From a virus, in IMG/VR virus record IMGVR_UViG_3300027413_000369, positions 1-45,936 of that record: a stretch of 45,936 nucleotides of DNA. The stretch is one strand, 5' to 3'. The notes under the pieces are model-generated. The model was given only the letters and a program-made list of their open reading frames with translations, did no database searches and had not been told where the DNA came from. Position numbers and translations under genes: made by a program. Positions 21,461 through 29,787 of the stretch are shown one piece after another; the stretch's first letter is position 1; every line of letters starts with the position of its first letter.

Positions 21461-21641
21461 ATAGACCTAAAACTCGTAAGAGAGGTAGCGGCTCCATTCC
21501 AAAAAATAAAATCCCTACACCATTTATAACTATTAATTTAAAAGCTAAACCTAAAACGAAAAACTTTAGTACAAATTTTAAGGTCCAAGGCTCTTTTCCT
21601 GTAAGTCTTTTCCACAAAGGAAAGTCCCATTTAGGTATCAT
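21459..21641 (-). CDS. Single-span membrane protein (60 aa)
   Basis: A short protein beginning with an amphipathic, tryptophan-rich head (MIPKWDFPLWKRL). A hydrophobic segment, VLKFFVLGLAFKLIVI and onward, at about residues 24-48 forms one transmembrane helix. Its ATG overlaps the stop of the Coq4-like gene (ATGA), and the stop codon lies inside the arm of terminator T3. It is the last leftward gene. A holin-like role is possible from size and topology, but no endolysin is visible nearby. It could equally be a membrane partner of the Coq4-like protein. Confidence 0.72.
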   Translation of the reverse strand: MIPKWDFPLWKRLTGKEPWTLKFVLKFFVLGLAFKLIVINGVGILFFGMEPLPLLRVLGL

Positions 21642-22468
21642 AGCACTCTACCAACCTTCCATTTAGCATCCTCGTACTCTGGGTGAATATTATCCATTCT
21701 AAAATCTTTTTCATGTAGTTTTACAAAAGATGCAAAACGAGTAGGAAAACCTATATTGTACTCTTTACGAGCTTCTTCTACATCTTTACCTATAATATCC
21801 AAGGGATTCATAGTCCACAGTGCAGGGTCTACATTTTTTACTATTTTCATGGCTTCTTTTCTTATTCGCATAGGCTCCCAGTTCTTATAGTCCCAACAGG
21901 CTCTTAATGCCAGCACCCAAGATGCATATCTAGGTCCCGAATGTTTAGTTGTGCCATATGTAACTACTTGTATAGCCATCTCGCCCAAAGACGTAGTATC
22001 GTAGCGAAATAGTATATGCTGAAAATCATGGCACAAAAAGACGTGCCTAGCTACATTTTTTCTTACTTCAAGCCTCCAATCGTCTCCACCAAAGTTACCT
22101 TTAACATGCTCATCAAAACGCTTAGCCCAAAGCTCCTCAAAAGACCATTGTTTAATCAGATGTCCATAATGCCCTCCTACAGTGTTAGGTGCGTAGGTAC
22201 TCATAGTTTCTTCATTAGTAATTACAGGTAATACCTGCTCAAGTTGATACTTCTTACTTTTGTCTTCTCTGCCCCATAGTATATCTCTACCCGCGGTAGA
22301 GGACATAAAATGACGCATTAACCTTAAGTTAGAAGGCAATTCCATCTGTGTTATCAACTCTCTAATAACATCTCCTGTTTCTAGCTGGTCTTTAGGTAGA
22401 TCGAGGTCGGTTTGTCCTTTACTCCACAAAACTCTTGTTAGCTTCCATATTTTAATTGGGTTCCACAT
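21638..22468 (-). CDS. coq4: Coq4-like ubiquinone-biosynthesis family protein (276 aa)
   Basis: The metal motif of Coq4 is complete: HDFQH followed by 11 residues and a glutamate (HDxxH-x11-E, ending SLGE), near residues 145-161. A typical YxxRHDxxH context and the neighbouring basic segments also agree. Coq4 is known in eukaryotes and many bacteria as a ubiquinone-biosynthesis protein and is proposed to act on the C1 position of the quinone ring. It is embedded in the phage tail/accessory operon: its ribosome binding site overlaps the previous stop codon and its own stop overlaps the 60-residue membrane gene. A role in the infected cell is unknown. Confidence 0.82.
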   Translation of the reverse strand: MWNPIKIWKLTRVLWSKGQTDLDLPKDQLETGDVIRELITQMELPSNLRLMRHFMSSTAGRDILWGREDKSKKYQLEQVLPVITNEETMSTYAPNTVGGHYGHLIKQWSFEELWAKRFDEHVKGNFGGDDWRLEVRKNVARHVFLCHDFQHILFRYDTTSLGEMAIQVVTYGTTKHSGPRYASWVLALRACWDYKNWEPMRIRKEAMKIVKNVDPALWTMNPLDIIGKDVEEARKEYNIGFPTRFASFVKLHEKDFRMDNIHPEYEDAKWKVGRVL

Positions 22469-23257: not shown

Positions 23258-23974
23258 TTAGTCTCCTTTAGCGGCAAGCAGTGCAGGCCGCAGCTTACCC
23301 ACTCTAGTTTTCGTTTTATTGGCTAGAGCAAGTATTTGTTTTTCTCTGTACGGAGGCAGTCCTTTAGTATAGTCTGCCAGCTTATCGAAACAGTATGCAA
23401 ATGTTTCTATAGGTGTTGCTTTTCCTGTCAATAAGTTTGGTAGATAATTATAAACTGCTGCGGTTTCTCCCGCCATTCCATACTTAAAAGCCTCGTAACC
23501 CCCTATACAATCTTTGAGTATAGGGTCAGATTTATGATTAATATACCTAGGCATATATAATAGTTTTTTATCTGCTAATACGCCCGAATCTTTGTCAGGT
23601 ATTTCGAACCACTTGGCAGGGTTTATTATAAAGATACATAAATCTATAAAACCTTTTGTTATTGGGCTATCTACAAGTTTATAAGAGGTAGAATGTTTAG
23701 GATGGTCTACATAAACACCTTCTCTACTTACAGATAAAGCATATTTTTGCAGTTGTTCTTCTGGGGGAAGATCTCCATGTTTTATATCAAGAACTAAACC
23801 GCTTGTAACAACTAAAGAAATACCTTTTGCATGAGCTAAAGCTGTGCCTATTTTACTCTTCCCTTTAGCAGGAACAACCTTATACTTAACCCTAGGCATA
23901 TTCTTTTTTATAGAGTTTACAGTTAAAGCTGTAAGATCATTGCACTCAAGAATTATTATTTCTAGGCTTGACAT
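23258..23974 (-). CDS. Putative GT-A-like glycosyltransferase or related protein (238 aa)
   Basis: Start ATG 23974 with AAGGAG 7 bases upstream; an in-frame upstream ATG would lack this site. The first residues, LEIIILECNDLTALTVNSI, resemble the entry strand and helix of family-2-type (GT-A) glycosyltransferases, and a GKSKIGTALAHAKG stretch with LVVTSGLVL resembles the middle of that fold. No clean DXD is visible. It overlaps the preceding gene by 29 bases, so the two are probably translated together. It could act on glycan on the host surface or virion. The assignment is tentative. Confidence 0.5.
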   Translation of the reverse strand: MSSLEIIILECNDLTALTVNSIKKNMPRVKYKVVPAKGKSKIGTALAHAKGISLVVTSGLVLDIKHGDLPPEEQLQKYALSVSREGVYVDHPKHSTSYKLVDSPITKGFIDLCIFIINPAKWFEIPDKDSGVLADKKLLYMPRYINHKSDPILKDCIGGYEAFKYGMAGETAAVYNYLPNLLTGKATPIETFAYCFDKLADYTKGLPPYREKQILALANKTKTRVGKLRPALLAAKGD

Positions 23975-24821
23975 GAGGCATCTCCTTGTAGTGGTTGAAA
24001 AAAGCATCTATGTATTCTTGAGGATTTTCAGATACAGACGGGATTAGCCCTGCATACTTACAAGATAGAATAGCTTTTAGTCTATCTGTATTAGCTTTGC
24101 CCCCTTTCCATATTGTATTGTATAAGGCACTATATGTTAAATGCTTGTGGCCGTGCCCAAATAAATAAGTTTTCTTACCTTGAGCAAGAGCTACTATACC
24201 CATCTCGGAGTTCTCGCAACAGCCAACTATGCTTGCACTTGTCATAAGTTCATGTCCAGAAAGTTTTTTGTCTAATATATTCTCTGCTCCATACTTATGT
24301 TTCAAGTTGGCAACTAAACCAGGGGCTGTTATAGGGTGACACTTTAGTTTTGCCCCTTGTTTTATAGCGTTCTCCATTTTATTCCAGTCAAGAGCGTCCT
24401 GAATAATATTAGTACCAGGCAAGAAAATAACAAAATCATGTTCACATCTAGCTTTACGAAGCTTGTACTTGTCTACACTATTAGTGGCCAAGTCTTGAAA
24501 TATTCTCTCTCCCTCTTCCGTTATAGGTTCCTGTGACGCTTTCTGCATAATCTGATGGGTATGATAGGCTCCTGCTGCTCTAACATATATAAACTTTGCC
24601 ATTGCATCTGTATATAAATATCCATGAATTCGCTCTCTATCACCTAAGTCATACCAAACATCATACTCTACACGAGTACCGTTAGGTCCATTTTTAGGTA
24701 GAAGGTCTTTCATGTTAGCAAGAGTATCGTTTTCGTTGCCCCTAACTATATTTCCTGACTTGAAAAAGTGTGCCGCAGGATTACCTAGAACATCATTCTC
24801 AGCCAGTCTTTCTATGGGCAT
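23946..24821 (-). CDS. Putative capsule-polysaccharide/GT-B-like glycosyltransferase family protein (291 aa)
   Basis: The C-terminal half has the pattern seen in capsule polysaccharide and CDP-glycerol type transferases of the GT-B fold: LKCHPITAPG near residue 160, then an ENILDKKLSGHELM segment, an ASIVGCCENSEMGIVALAQG stretch, and KTYLFGHG. There is no signal peptide. ATG 24821 is preceded by GAGGAG inside the upstream coiled-coil gene. With the gene that follows it may form a two-enzyme module for glycan modification. The substrate is not evident. Confidence 0.55.
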   Translation of the reverse strand: MPIERLAENDVLGNPAAHFFKSGNIVRGNENDTLANMKDLLPKNGPNGTRVEYDVWYDLGDRERIHGYLYTDAMAKFIYVRAAGAYHTHQIMQKASQEPITEEGERIFQDLATNSVDKYKLRKARCEHDFVIFLPGTNIIQDALDWNKMENAIKQGAKLKCHPITAPGLVANLKHKYGAENILDKKLSGHELMTSASIVGCCENSEMGIVALAQGKKTYLFGHGHKHLTYSALYNTIWKGGKANTDRLKAILSCKYAGLIPSVSENPQEYIDAFFNHYKEMPHVKPRNNNS

Positions 24822-24960
24822 TTACTAACTCCTCTATTTTATCTTCCAAGTCTTCGATACGCTCTTCGGTTTCTCGAAAATGCTCCATGATTATTTCAAT
24901 GGTAGTCTCTAGTCTCCTAGACATACCTTTTAATTCTTCTTCTAATTTTATTCCGTCCAT
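24799..24960 (-). CDS. Small coiled-coil protein (53 aa)
   Basis: ATG 24960 overlaps the end of the threonine-rich fibre gene by 13 bases and its stop lies inside the start of the next gene, so it is nested in the operon. The protein is almost entirely a charged helix (SRRLETTIEIIMEHFRETEE, then EDLEDKIEELV) with regular hydrophobic spacing typical of a coiled coil. The ribosome binding site is weak. It could be a trimerisation or chaperone-like partner of the fibre, by position only. Confidence 0.62.
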   Translation of the reverse strand: MDGIKLEEELKGMSRRLETTIEIIMEHFRETEERIEDLEDKIEELVNAHRKTG

Positions 24961-27900
24961 TGTGAACCGTCCCAATATGATGTGTTATAGTCAGAACCTG
25001 ATGCAACTTCTGTAGTTGTTCCTGTACCTGTTACTCTCTCATATACAACAGTGTTGGTAGAGTTTGAAGTAGAAGTTGATAGGTTTGTTGTTCGTAACGT
25101 GGTAAAAACTGTCGTTACCGCAGTATTAGTTGCTACCGATGTACCTAAACTTGTGGCAAATGCAGTGTTAAATGCCGTAGTGGTCGTGCGGGTAGTAGTG
25201 TTATTAGTGTCAAAACCTGTATTATAAGTAGTAGTCGTTGAAACACTTGTACCTAAACTAGTATCAAACGTAGTATTAAATGAACTTACAGTGCTCTTAG
25301 TAGTGCCTAAACTTGTATTAAAGGTTGTTGTAGTATTTCTATTAGTATTAAATACTGTATTATACGAAGTAGTAGTAGCTACCGAAGTACTTAAAGAAGT
25401 ACCAAATGTAGTAGTAAACTCCGTAGAAGTACTAATTGTAGTATTAAATACCGTAGTAGTATTAAACGTTGTAGTAGTACCTAATGTGGTATTAAACGTA
25501 GTAGTAGTATTAAACGTAGTAGTTCTTGCAGTTCCTAGAGCAGTATCATACGCGGTGGTATACGTAGTAGTTGTATTAAACGCAGTAGTAGTATTATACG
25601 ATGTAGTAGTCGCTAAACTCGTATTAAACGTAGTAGTAGTATTAAATGTTGTAGTATACGTTGTTGTAGTAGACTGCGAAGTATTAAACGTAGTAGTTGT
25701 ACTTTTGCTAGTACCTCTGCTTGTAGAGACGGCTAAACTTGTGTTAAATACCGAAGTTGTGGCTTTACTAGTCGCTAAACTGGTATTGAATGTAGTAGTG
25801 TAAGTAGACGCGGTGCTACGACTAGTACTTGTATTAAATACAGAAGTTGTGGATCTGCTTGTAAGAGTTCCTAAAGTTGTTGCATATACAGTAGTAGTTC
25901 CTTTGTTCGTAACAATACCCGTATTGAACGTAGTAGTGTAAACAGTTGTACTACTTCTAGTTGTATTTGTTAAGAAAGCGCTTGTTGTACTTCTACTGGT
26001 AGCTGTAGTTAGTCCTGTATTATATACAGTAGTTGTACCTCTACTAGTACCTAAATCAGTATTAAATGTAGTAGTATACGTTGTTGTAGTAGCTATAGAA
26101 GTCCCTGTAGCATAAACTGTTGTAGTGTTTCTACTTGTGCCCGTTGCTCTTGAAGTAGTATAAACAGTGGTTGTACTTCTGTCTGTACCTATACTTGTTG
26201 TAAAAGTAGTGGTATACGTTGTTGTCGTGTTAAATGTTGTAGAAGTACTCTTGCTTGTTCCGGTAGCTCTACTTGTAGAGGTCGCTTTAGAAGTTACAAA
26301 AGTAGTAGTTGTACCCCTATCAGTAACAATACCTGTATTAAACGTAGTAGTAGTTCCAAAAGTTGTAGCTGTTCCTCTACTTTCCGCAGTTGCTATCGAA
26401 GTATTGAATACCGAAGAAGTTGTGTATGCAGTAGTAGTTGTAAATACTGTTCCACTTACTCTCGTAGTATTAGTAGTTCGACTTTCCGCCGTATTCCTCG
26501 CAGTATTATATACCGTAGAAGTAACATATGTCGTAGTAGTATTATACGAAGTAGTAGTATTTCTGCTTGTAGTAGTAGTTCGACTTTCTGCAGTATTTCT
26601 AGCAGTATTATACGAACTTAGGGTAGTTCTACTTGTAGCGGTAGTTCGACTTTCTGCAGTATTTCTAGCAGTATTAAACGAACTTAGGGTAGTTCTACTT
26701 GTAGCGGTAGTTCGACTTTCTGCAGTATTTCTAGCAGTATTAAAAGAACTTAGGGTAGTTCTACTTGTAGCGGTAGTTCGACTTTCTGCAGTATTTCTAG
26801 CAGTATTGAACGAGCTTACAGTATTTCTACTTGTAGCAGTGCTCCTACTTTCTGCGGTATTTCTGCTTGTAGTAGTGGTTCGACTTTCTGCAGTATTTTT
26901 AGAAGTAATAAAAGTGGTATTCCAACTTGTTGAAAATGCAGTAGTATAAGTAGTCGTTCTCGACGTATTAAAACTAGAGGCATAAGCAGTGACATACGCG
27001 GTAGTAAACGTAGTACTTACGGTAGTAACTGCTCGTCGACGAATATAGTAGGTAGCAAGAGTAGAGCCTTTAAACAATACCGAAGAAAATAATGAACCTC
27101 TATTATACTGATATCCTCCATGCGTAGAGAGGGTTCCATTACCACTACCGGTACCTACCGTAGCACCGTTCCAACTCAACGTAAACGTATGGTTATAAGC
27201 ATTTGTGCTTGTGACAAACCATTGGTAAAGGGGATGGCTATTGCTGAATTGATAAGATGTGTAACTACCATATCCTGAAGTATTTCTCGATGTACTTTTA
27301 CTTGTAGCCCTATAAGTATTTACAGAAGTACCAAAAGTCGTCGTTCTAGAAGTCACCCTGCTCGCACTTGCTCCCGTGCCTTTCGAAGTATTAAAAGCCG
27401 TAGAGGTAGTATAAGCTGTAGTAGTACCAAAAGCCGTAGAGGTAGTATAAGCTGTAGTAGTATTAAAAGCCGTTGTAGTGTTCTTCGAGGTACCAAACGT
27501 AGTGGCGGTCGTATAAGCTGTAGTAGTACCAAACGCCGTTGTAGTGTTCTTCGAGGTACCAAACGTAGTGGCGGTCGTATAAGCTGTAGTAGTACCAAAC
27601 GCCGTTGAAGTGTTCTTCGAGGTACCAAAAGTAGTGGCAGTAGTATAAGCTGTGGTAGTACCAAAACCCGTTGTAGTATTATTTGAAGTACCAAAAGTAG
27701 TGGCAGTAGTATAGGCTGTGGTAGTACCAAAACCCGTTGTAGTATTCTTTGAAGTACCAAAAGTAGTGGCAGTAGTATAGGCTGTAGTAGTACCAAAGCC
27801 TGTTGTAGTATTATTTGAAGTACCAAAAGTAGTGGCCGTAGTATAAGCTGTAGTAGTACCAAAAGCCGTAGAAGTAGTCTTAGAAGTACCTGTCGCTCGA

Positions 27901-29534
27901 CTTTCAGAAGTATTCTTAGACGTATTAAAAGTAGTACCAGTGGTATAAGCTGTAGTAGTACCAAAAGTAGTTGTCGTGTTTCTACTTGTAGACGTTCCTC
28001 TACTTTCCGCAGTGTTTCTAGAGGTATTAAACACGCTAGAAGTCACATAGGCGGTTGTCGTAGTTCTGCTCGTAGAAGTACCTCTAGACGTGGCAAAAGT
28101 ACTTGTATACGTAGTAGTTGTACTTTTCGAAGTATTAAATGCAGTAGTCGTATTAAATACAGTATTAGTGTTATAGGAGGTAGTAGTATTTCTGCTTGTA
28201 GCAGTTCCTCGACTAGTAAGCAATCCTGTATTAAAACTAGAAGTATATACGGTAGTGGTGGCTCTATCTGTATTAAATACTGAAGAAGTGTTATAGCTTG
28301 TAAGAGTAGTTTTACTTGTTGACGTGTTAAACACAGAAGTAGTACTACGATCCGTAATTATACCTGTTTCAAACGTGGTATTAAATGCAGTACTGGTAGC
28401 TCTTGTAGTTGTAAAAGTAGTAGTTGTACCAAAACCTGTAGTAGTATTTAAAGTGGTCGTAGTTGTAAAAGTAGTCGTTGTACTACGATCAGTAATTAAT
28501 CCGGTATTAAAAGTAGAAGTATATACAGTACTAGTAGACTTAGATGTGTCAAATACTGTATTTGTACTAAAGGTAGTAGTTGTACCTACAGAAGTACTTG
28601 TTGAAAATACAGTAGTAGTACCTACGTCGGTTAAAAGACCTGTATTAAAAGTAGTAGTGTAAGCGGTAGTAGTAGAAATTTCAGTAACAAAAACACTGTT
28701 TGTACTGAAGGTAGTATTGTACGCAGTTGTCGTAGACAGCGTAGTATTGAATGTTGTAGTTGTGCCTCTAGTAGTTATACTACTTGTTGCGGTTGCTCTA
28801 GTAGTATTATATACAGTATCGGTACTTTTACTCGTACCCGTAGCCCTGGACGTCAGGGTTGCTAGAGTAGTGAGATTGCTTGTTTGAAAATTTGTATCAA
28901 AAGTCGTTGTTCTACTTGTTGAAGTCACCCTAGCAGTATTAAAAGTAGTAGTGGTAGAACGAGAAGTACTAGTGTCTCTAGTTGTATTATAGACGGACGT
29001 AGTGGCTCTGCTTGTTAAAAGCCCTGTATCAAACACAGTATCAAAAGTAGTAGTGGTACTTTTGCTTGTAGATCTACTTGTTTCATATACTGTTCCACTC
29101 TCTCTAGTGGTTTCGTAAACGGTCAAGTAAGCTGTAGTAGTTGCTACACTTGTTCCTTTACTTGTTTCAAAAGCAGTATTAAAAGAGGTAGTAGTACTTT
29201 TACTAGTAGAAGCTGTCGTCTCAAAAGAAGTAGTAAAAGTAGTAGTGGTACTGACACTTGTTGATGTAAGAGTATCAAAAGTAGTATCAAACGTAGTCGT
29301 AGTACTTATATTAGTAGCTAGAGAGGTTTCGAAGGAGGTTGTAAAAGCTGTTACAGTGTTAAAAGTTGTAGTTGTGCTTCTGTCGGTAACATATATTCCC
29401 TCCCAAGCAGTATGAAAAGTATTAGCACCTTTTGCTAAGACAAAGTTAACCCCTCTAAGCGTCCCAGCATTGCCTTTAACAATAATCTGGGAAGGCTCAA
29501 CAAGACTTCCAGAGTGATAAACTTTAATAGTCAT
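24948..29534 (-). CDS. Giant threonine-rich repeat fibre protein with central globular island (1528 aa)
   Basis: Probably a tail-associated fibre. After a normal N-terminal domain (about residues 1-52, MTIKVYHSG to IYVTDR) comes a repeat arm to about residue 745, an aromatic-rich non-repeat island to about 840, and a second repeat arm to about 1490. A short C-terminal cap (VVYERVTG to GSQWTE) closes it. The arms are made of short pieces of TTxF(N/G)T or TTxYTT type, with SR or SK/NN turns; some sections repeat exactly every 22 residues. I see no cysteine and almost no proline. It lies among fibre genes between the 83-residue fibre protein and the coiled-coil gene. Relatives of this repeat style occur in marine phages, but the role is not established. 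Confidence 0.85.
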   Translation of the reverse strand: MTIKVYHSGSLVEPSQIIVKGNAGTLRGVNFVLAKGANTFHTAWEGIYVTDRSTTTTFNTVTAFTTSFETSLATNISTTTTFDTTFDTLTSTSVSTTTTFTTSFETTASTSKSTTTSFNTAFETSKGTSVATTTAYLTVYETTRESGTVYETSRSTSKSTTTTFDTVFDTGLLTSRATTSVYNTTRDTSTSRSTTTTFNTARVTSTSRTTTFDTNFQTSNLTTLATLTSRATGTSKSTDTVYNTTRATATSSITTRGTTTTFNTTLSTTTAYNTTFSTNSVFVTEISTTTAYTTTFNTGLLTDVGTTTVFSTSTSVGTTTTFSTNTVFDTSKSTSTVYTSTFNTGLITDRSTTTTFTTTTTLNTTTGFGTTTTFTTTRATSTAFNTTFETGIITDRSTTSVFNTSTSKTTLTSYNTSSVFNTDRATTTVYTSSFNTGLLTSRGTATSRNTTTSYNTNTVFNTTTAFNTSKSTTTTYTSTFATSRGTSTSRTTTTAYVTSSVFNTSRNTAESRGTSTSRNTTTTFGTTTAYTTGTTFNTSKNTSESRATGTSKTTSTAFGTTTAYTTATTFGTSNNTTTGFGTTTAYTTATTFGTSKNTTTGFGTTTAYTTATTFGTSNNTTTGFGTTTAYTTATTFGTSKNTSTAFGTTTAYTTATTFGTSKNTTTAFGTTTAYTTATTFGTSKNTTTAFNTTTAYTTSTAFGTTTAYTTSTAFNTSKGTGASASRVTSRTTTFGTSVNTYRATSKSTSRNTSGYGSYTSYQFSNSHPLYQWFVTSTNAYNHTFTLSWNGATVGTGSGNGTLSTHGGYQYNRGSLFSSVLFKGSTLATYYIRRRAVTTVSTTFTTAYVTAYASSFNTSRTTTYTTAFSTSWNTTFITSKNTAESRTTTTSRNTAESRSTATSRNTVSSFNTARNTAESRTTATSRTTLSSFNTARNTAESRTTATSRTTLSSFNTARNTAESRTTATSRTTLSSYNTARNTAESRTTTTSRNTTTSYNTTTTYVTSTVYNTARNTAESRTTNTTRVSGTVFTTTTAYTTSSVFNTSIATAESRGTATTFGTTTTFNTGIVTDRGTTTTFVTSKATSTSRATGTSKSTSTTFNTTTTYTTTFTTSIGTDRSTTTVYTTSRATGTSRNTTTVYATGTSIATTTTYTTTFNTDLGTSRGTTTVYNTGLTTATSRSTTSAFLTNTTRSSTTVYTTTFNTGIVTNKGTTTVYATTLGTLTSRSTTSVFNTSTSRSTASTYTTTFNTSLATSKATTSVFNTSLAVSTSRGTSKSTTTTFNTSQSTTTTYTTTFNTTTTFNTSLATTTSYNTTTAFNTTTTYTTAYDTALGTARTTTFNTTTTFNTTLGTTTTFNTTTVFNTTISTSTEFTTTFGTSLSTSVATTTSYNTVFNTNRNTTTTFNTSLGTTKSTVSSFNTTFDTSLGTSVSTTTTYNTGFDTNNTTTRTTTTAFNTAFATSLGTSVATNTAVTTVFTTLRTTNLSTSTSNSTNTVVYERVTGTGTTTEVASGSDYNTSYWDGSQWTE
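26584..26913 (-). repeat. 66-bp tandem repeat array B within the fibre gene
   Basis: Five copies of CTTTCTGC(A/G)GTATTTCT start at 26584, 26650, 26716, 26782 and 26848, exactly 66 bases apart. They encode 22-residue units of the form (S/T)xxSSFNTARNTAESR (residues about 885-985). Copies are near-identical, so the array is recent or homogenised. Confidence 0.9.
27472..27867 (-). repeat. 66-bp tandem repeat array A within the fibre gene
   Basis: Six 66-bp units start at 27472, 27538, 27604, 27670, 27736 and 27802, each beginning GTTG(T/A)AGT. They encode 22-residue units containing FGTTTAYTTATTFGTS (residues about 556-688). The units differ at scattered third positions, which suggests selection on the protein as well as duplication. 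Confidence 0.92.
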
Positions 29535-29535
29535 A

Positions 29536-29787
29536 TTAGACTATATACCAAACGTACCCTGCAGGCTTACCGTTTCCATTAGTAGGAGTTGTAGAAGTTA
29601 CTTCCCACATATCATTATCTATTTCAGATAGAGCATGAGGGTTAAGGGTGAGAATACTATTATCACCCTTTTTCATATACACCCTACCATCTGTGGTATT
29701 TATAGCAAGCTCTCCCAAGTCAATTTGGGCGGCAGTCGGAACATTGCCCGACGTTGCCGAGCGTTTTAATTTTATTGTTTGTGCCAT
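29536..29787 (-). CDS. Small tail-fibre-type protein (83 aa)
   Basis: The N-terminus MAQTIKLKRSATSGNVPTAA followed by LGELAINTTDGRVYMKKGD is the common entry domain of phage fibre proteins. It is shared with the 398-residue protein just upstream, which starts MAQTIKIKRS. Here the rest of the fibre is missing and a short WEVTSTTPTNGNG segment ends the protein. It may be an independent adaptor or a remnant of a longer fibre. It stands directly before the giant repeat fibre gene. Confidence 0.82.
   Translation of the reverse strand: MAQTIKLKRSATSGNVPTAAQIDLGELAINTTDGRVYMKKGDNSILTLNPHALSEIDNDMWEVTSTTPTNGNGKPAGYVWYIV

Follow-up and report, generated by a model that had tools for sequence, protein, structure and literature searches.

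In the needle of T4 gp37 (PDB 2XGF) the chain runs out and back, with a stem formed by residues 882-931 and 960-1009, 50 from each side of the tip (PMC6957217). The tip subdomain (932-959) is inserted between these stem arms and is thought to bind the receptor, and the base domain, D10, is made of residues from both sides (PMC6957217). Here we describe a threonine-rich protein encoded on a metagenomic viral contig from IMG/VR (45,936 bases; this whole stretch is referred to as the window) and a family of its relatives. We consider it highly probable that this protein forms both shaft and tip of a phage tail fibre, with a chain that goes out and returns as an antiparallel β zipper, is probably trimeric, and carries a swappable receptor-binding tip.

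The fibre gene and its family

The initial annotation, made from the letters of this DNA, described two long repeat arms on either side of a single island. Parsing of the arms confirmed this layout and placed a non-repeat island between an outgoing and a returning arm, with a conserved module at each end of the protein (Table 1). Threonine makes up 42% of the arms, and the whole protein contains two prolines and no cysteine.

Table 1. Features of the fibre gene and its neighbours in the window.
Feature	Position	Strand	Basis
Fibre ORF, 1528 aa	24948..29534	minus	ORF and translation; 61 distinct complete relatives
N-module (conserved, N-terminal; putative fibre base), residues 1-48	29391..29534	minus	Alignment A1; served as query in the search for relatives
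Outgoing Thr-rich arm, residues 49-754, units of 4 and 6 residues	27273..29390	minus	Unit parse; mirrored by returning arm
66-bp tandem array in outgoing arm, 7.1 copies (22 aa = units 6,6,6,4)	27423..27890	minus	
Tip domain (island), residues 755-835	27030..27272	minus	Homologous tips in alignment A3; AF2 pLDDT 84.6
Returning Thr-rich arm, residues 836-1495	25050..27029	minus	Unit parse; reversed 4/6 code of outgoing arm and complementary end residues
66-bp tandem array in returning arm, 5.0 copies (6,6,6,4 period; sequence differs from outgoing array)	26534..26864	minus	
C-module (YERVTGTG...DGSQWTE; putative fibre base), residues 1496-1528	24951..25049	minus	Alignment A2, mean column identity 78%
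Downstream partner 1, possible GT-B-like glycosyltransferase	23946..24821	minus	65 loci; weak Pfam Capsule_synth
Downstream partner 2, GT-A-like by eye only	23258..24007	minus	57 loci
83-aa protein directly upstream, possible adaptor	29536..29787	minus	PHROG tail fibre families, best E 5.6e-10; 25 loci

Relatives were found by searching the two end modules separately, which gave 41 (N-module) and 76 (C-module); a search with the island alone recovered zero relatives. A tblastn search of isolated phages with the whole protein returned no match, perhaps because BLAST masks the threonine-rich repeats. PDB, Pfam and PHROG contained no relative of the fibre, and the open-access literature on threonine-rich, palindromic or folded-back phage fibres held nothing relevant. 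The relatives come from IMG/VR, and one (L117) lies on a contig of 520 kb from a bacterium of the SAR92 clade. The previously undescribed family comprises 61 distinct complete members of 238-1781 aa. Nearly all 61 share one plan: an N-module, a threonine-rich arm, one island or turn, a second threonine-rich arm and a C-module. The lengths of the outgoing and returning arms, which range from about 70 to 834 residues, are almost perfectly correlated (r=0.9986, 27 relatives). Thus, the central position of the island is not due to chance.

The N-modules (alignment A1) are too diverse for scanning. Their profile matches 'Cake' proteins in the PDB with a summed E of 2.2e-8, with no single stretch passing. 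We take these to be designed β-propellers, in which case the N-module perhaps has a blade-like fold. Also identified were three divergent relatives with other repeats (L112, L113 and L114; FTNATGFTNNTSR-like in L113), perhaps with another unit length. L114 fails the mirror test described below, and L112 and L113 are incomplete.

A mirrored order of short and long units

The arms were divided into units with a two-state parser that had only the sequences as training data. They consist of six-residue units, x-T-T-T-S/T-Φ, with threonine at 98% of second and 89% of fourth positions, and four-residue units, x-T-S/T-Φ, with threonine at 97% of second positions, where Φ is a large end residue. Both arms of the window protein parse entirely into these units, with zero leftover residues. 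The 22-residue period noted in the initial annotation corresponds to units 6+6+6+4, encoded by 66-bp arrays. As all units have an even number of residues, the threonines and Φ of each would share one face of an extended strand. This face would carry Φ and the threonine of position 2 (and of position 4 in the longer unit), and the opposite face would be small and polar. Successive Φ levels would be separated by one threonine level in a four-residue unit and by two in a six-residue unit, so that the 4/6 series may act as a barcode of core layers shared by both strands.

Starting from the base, the outgoing arm shows the series of 4s and 6s that the returning arm shows in reverse. Using a base-anchored, ungapped comparison, in which the offset was one unit throughout for nearly all members, we found identity at 2685/2749 levels pooled over 44 members (97.7%). 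Comparison with the returning arms of other proteins gave 56%, and with the unreversed returning arm 48%. Long members include perfect mirrors of 164/164 (L007 and L011), 139/139 (L013), 129/129 (L002) and also 89/89 levels, and 119 consecutive levels are mirrored in the window fibre. Twenty members mirror perfectly and 55 of the 61 do so at 90% or above; identity is below 80% in three, namely L067 (18/23), L111 (13/17) and the divergent L114 (39/68). Shuffled and Markov-3 controls score far below the real proteins, except for two short members (L019 and L035). The symmetry does not depend on the parser: a direct correlation of large residues had its best lag at -1 in 13/13 proteins (r 0.62-0.93), and its parallel control was lower in each of the 13.

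Complementary end residues in the two arms

Assuming antiparallel strands, the register that follows places Φ of outgoing unit i opposite Φ of returning unit i+1. Exactly one of the two opposed residues is aromatic at 2540/2616 levels (97.1%; 50.7% after shuffling), and at other offsets this share is only 38-58%. Among 2081 levels of a strictly matched set there are 11 aromatic-aromatic and 3 basic-basic pairs. Within proteins there are also preferences for particular partners, as F:R (1100 observed, 926 expected), Y:K (266 and 163) and Y:H (167 and 86) pairs are in excess and F:H pairs are nearly absent (5 and 76). Each Φ level of the putative zipper would therefore receive an aromatic residue from one strand and a basic, or less often an aliphatic or small, residue from the other.

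Tandem arrays and matched insertions

The outgoing arm of the window protein is longer than the returning arm by about 40 residues (7 units), and the excess is confined to the two 66-bp arrays, which mirror one another apart from this 7-unit gap. If that one gap is allowed, the arms mirror in 131/132 unit lengths. It cannot be told whether the excess is real or reflects collapse of repeats during assembly. The near-identical fibres L002 and L003 differ in a single 22-aa repeat, which affects the returning arm and leaves the outgoing arm unchanged. Of the two, the longer is a perfect mirror, and the difference may be either an assembly collapse or an unmatched intermediate.

Elsewhere in the family, insertions or deletions in one arm are matched at the corresponding level of the other. 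L093 and L095 differ by 52 aa at level 34, and L009 and L082 by 76 aa at level 95, in each case in both arms.

Tandem arrays are present in both arms, so we considered whether the symmetry could be a by-product of repeat expansion by duplication, without structural pairing. This seems scarcely credible, as duplication cannot reverse the order of units and the indels are matched between the arms. Moreover, the mirrored arrays differ in sequence (TTATTF-GTSK-NTTTGF-GTTTAY in one arm, NTAESR-TTATSR-TTLSSF-NTAR in the other), with end residues that are complementary rather than similar.

Threonine-rich repeats with local DNA periods of 18, 22, 30 or 66 bases could also indicate a β-solenoid, or another rod of repeats running in a single direction, from which the island projects as a side domain. 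We judge this very unlikely. In such a rod it is neighbouring turns that pair, which leaves the arm-to-arm code, the complementarity and the matched indels without explanation, and the irregular order of the units, all of them even, gives no constant coil period. The initial annotation had suggested a β-solenoid or a sheet. The solenoid is disfavoured by the even units, the absence of regular turn residues and the arm-to-arm matching; an extended antiparallel pair of strands fits.

The mirror centre and the tips

Of 14 members with a short tip, 12 have a turn of the form xGK (once ANK) no more than one residue from the mirror centre; in the remaining two the turn is 2.5 (L014) and 9 (L035) residues away. 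Tip-less members have glycine-rich loops at the centre, such as GGKGGG, PGKGGG, TDGK and GGKP. In those members with a domain at the tip that were checked, the midpoint of the island is no more than 4 residues from the mirror centre, with the exception of the window protein (20.5 residues), where the displacement is due to the 7-unit excess.

These centres bear on whether the arms pair within a chain or between chains, a distinction that cannot be drawn from the symmetry of the sequence by itself. In an antiparallel homodimer, two straight chains would lie head to tail with residue i beside N-i and the islands halfway along the rod. The same mirrored code and complementarity would result, since both arrangements need only i/N-i pairing. 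A straight strand, however, would be expected to avoid glycine-rich loops at its centre, and these suit a hairpin. In addition, an AF2 model of the window tip (pLDDT 84.6) draws both flanking arm stretches (11-25 and 94-120) as strands of a single chain, and a rod with two equal ends would be hard to attach to a virion. We thus favour the hairpin and regard the dimer as unlikely.

The tips are of several kinds. The window tip falls in a diverse group of domains (A3, 32 sequences); L005, L007 and L013 have unrelated tyrosine-rich tips, and others have bare turns. A fold search of the PDB with the window tip yielded no match at E <= 0.001, and Pfam GP38 was not matched. One match was found among viral folds, a Gp38-domain protein of Rhizobium phage RL2RES. 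The proposal in the initial annotation that the island is the host-contacting tip gains support from this match to a phage protein with a Gp38 adhesin domain and from the modularity and diversity of the tips, although contact with a host has not been shown. As the profile comparison is weak, the likeness is a plausible lead towards receptor binding, not a proof.

A model of the fibre

The 4/6 code, the complementarity, the compensated indels and, in tip-less members, the glycine-lysine turn at the centre are established from the sequences, and all support the earlier suggestion of a chain that runs to a tip and back. β structure, pairing within one chain, a trimer, presence in the virion and receptor binding are inferred. 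In the hairpin model, the N- and C-modules together would form the base, from which the chain would leave as one long extended β strand, build the tip and return antiparallel to itself. Three chains would probably associate into a six-stranded needle, comparable to the stem of T4 gp37. The central domain, at the far end, would be the receptor-binding tip, and tips would be exchanged while the rule of the shaft is kept. An AF2 prediction for a whole short member (L030) has low confidence (pLDDT 33) and is uninformative as a model of the complete protein; its sole long hairpin is in exactly the predicted register (sum 254).

Taking 0.33 nm per residue, the window fibre would be about 220-230 nm long, and members of the family would span about 25-280 nm. 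We think it likely that the protein works as a 'stem-loop', in which the returning strand is determined, over as many as 164 levels, by the 4/6 length code and the pairing code of its outgoing counterpart. Length would be tuned across the 25-280 nm range by matched insertions and tips would be swapped, with the register kept without conserved sequence. From the outgoing half one can largely predict the length code of the returning half and the class of its residues. These fibres raise the question of how a single gene acquires matching insertions in its two arms.

Neighbouring genes and host

In nearly all relatives the fibre gene is followed directly by the two downstream partner genes, and the first starts 85-173 bases past the fibre stop where this was measured. 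Pfam Capsule_synth was matched weakly by 3/25 homologues of partner 1 (best E 7.9e-4); partner 2 has no match in Pfam or PDB. Given the weak similarity of partner 1 to capsule-synthesis glycosyltransferases, the Thr/Ser-rich outer face of the fibre could be O-glycosylated. The 83-aa protein encoded directly upstream of the fibre resembles the N-terminus of phage tail fibres. Also upstream are genes of a tail module, including those for DTP-pb9-like, LtfC-like and tail-fibre-like proteins, and this position beside tail tip genes agrees with a role as tail fibre. The DTP-pb9 domain and the LtfC-like protein give the tailed phage of the window a T5-like character. A 276-aa Coq4-like protein is encoded at 21638-22468 (Pfam E 4.1e-5), which is unusual for a phage.

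The relative on the SAR92 clade contig is close to capsid and head genes and is probably part of a prophage, which would provide a link to a host. Homologues of the downstream gene occur in KVP40-like Vibrio phages and in Stenotrophomonas phage DLP_6, without an adjoining threonine-rich mirrored fibre. DLP_6 encodes a very long unannotated repeat protein (L127:25894-28490 and L123:1-1655) that runs off both record ends. It has a possible Hint/intein-like end and lies shortly 5' of the downstream-partner homologue.

Comparison with known systems

The closest match to the window tip is the Gp38-domain protein of Rhizobium phage RL2RES (QGZ14132.1; BFVD A0A6B9J3D3), with a fold-match E of 1.5e-4, a probability of 1.0 and a query TM of 0.51. 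By eye, W-D/N-G and Y-x-R/K-G motifs are common to both, and the RL2RES gene adjoins a putative tail fibre gene. An hhalign comparison with alignment A3 gave only 6.6% probability (E 0.0056). Unlike the window fibre, the RL2RES protein has a glycine-rich Gp38-like sequence (Pfam GP38 E 0.0011, below the cut-off) and lacks threonine-rich arms; the window tip resembles only the inserted domain of RL2RES_230.

In the cultured Caulobacter phages Quill_5.2 and Lullwater, a short threonine-rich protein (WNV48177.1) is encoded just 5' of the downstream-partner homologue. In Quill_5.2 (L124:7328-7882) it has 184 aa that by eye form mostly four-residue units, and no N- or C-module was recognised. It may offer a laboratory model for the out-and-back type of fibre.

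No sequence homology of the fibre to T4 gp37 or its collar domain was detected in PHROG, Pfam or PDB. The HxH iron motif, a feature of the T4 gp37 core, does not occur in the window protein, and only one of 62 proteins (L114) has one. The likeness is in layout: in the family, as in gp37, the tip is inserted between stem arms that match in length, so gp37 already represents this kind of fibre in miniature. The arms here reach 834 residues, more than 15 times the length of those of gp37, and have a 4/6 code that gp37 lacks. The core would be built of threonine and aromatic/basic pairs, and the base modules differ. The pairing code of the fibre may be new in principle, as far as the open-access literature allows us to say. 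A family of fibres from marine phages is thereby defined, and its swappable tips are candidate receptor-binding domains. Compared with gp37, a fibre with no HxH motif and no family match presents a long self-complementary code and a core of threonine, aromatic and basic residues. Such a readable pairing rule for a long β fibre is rare in proteins, and it points to fibre rods of programmable length.
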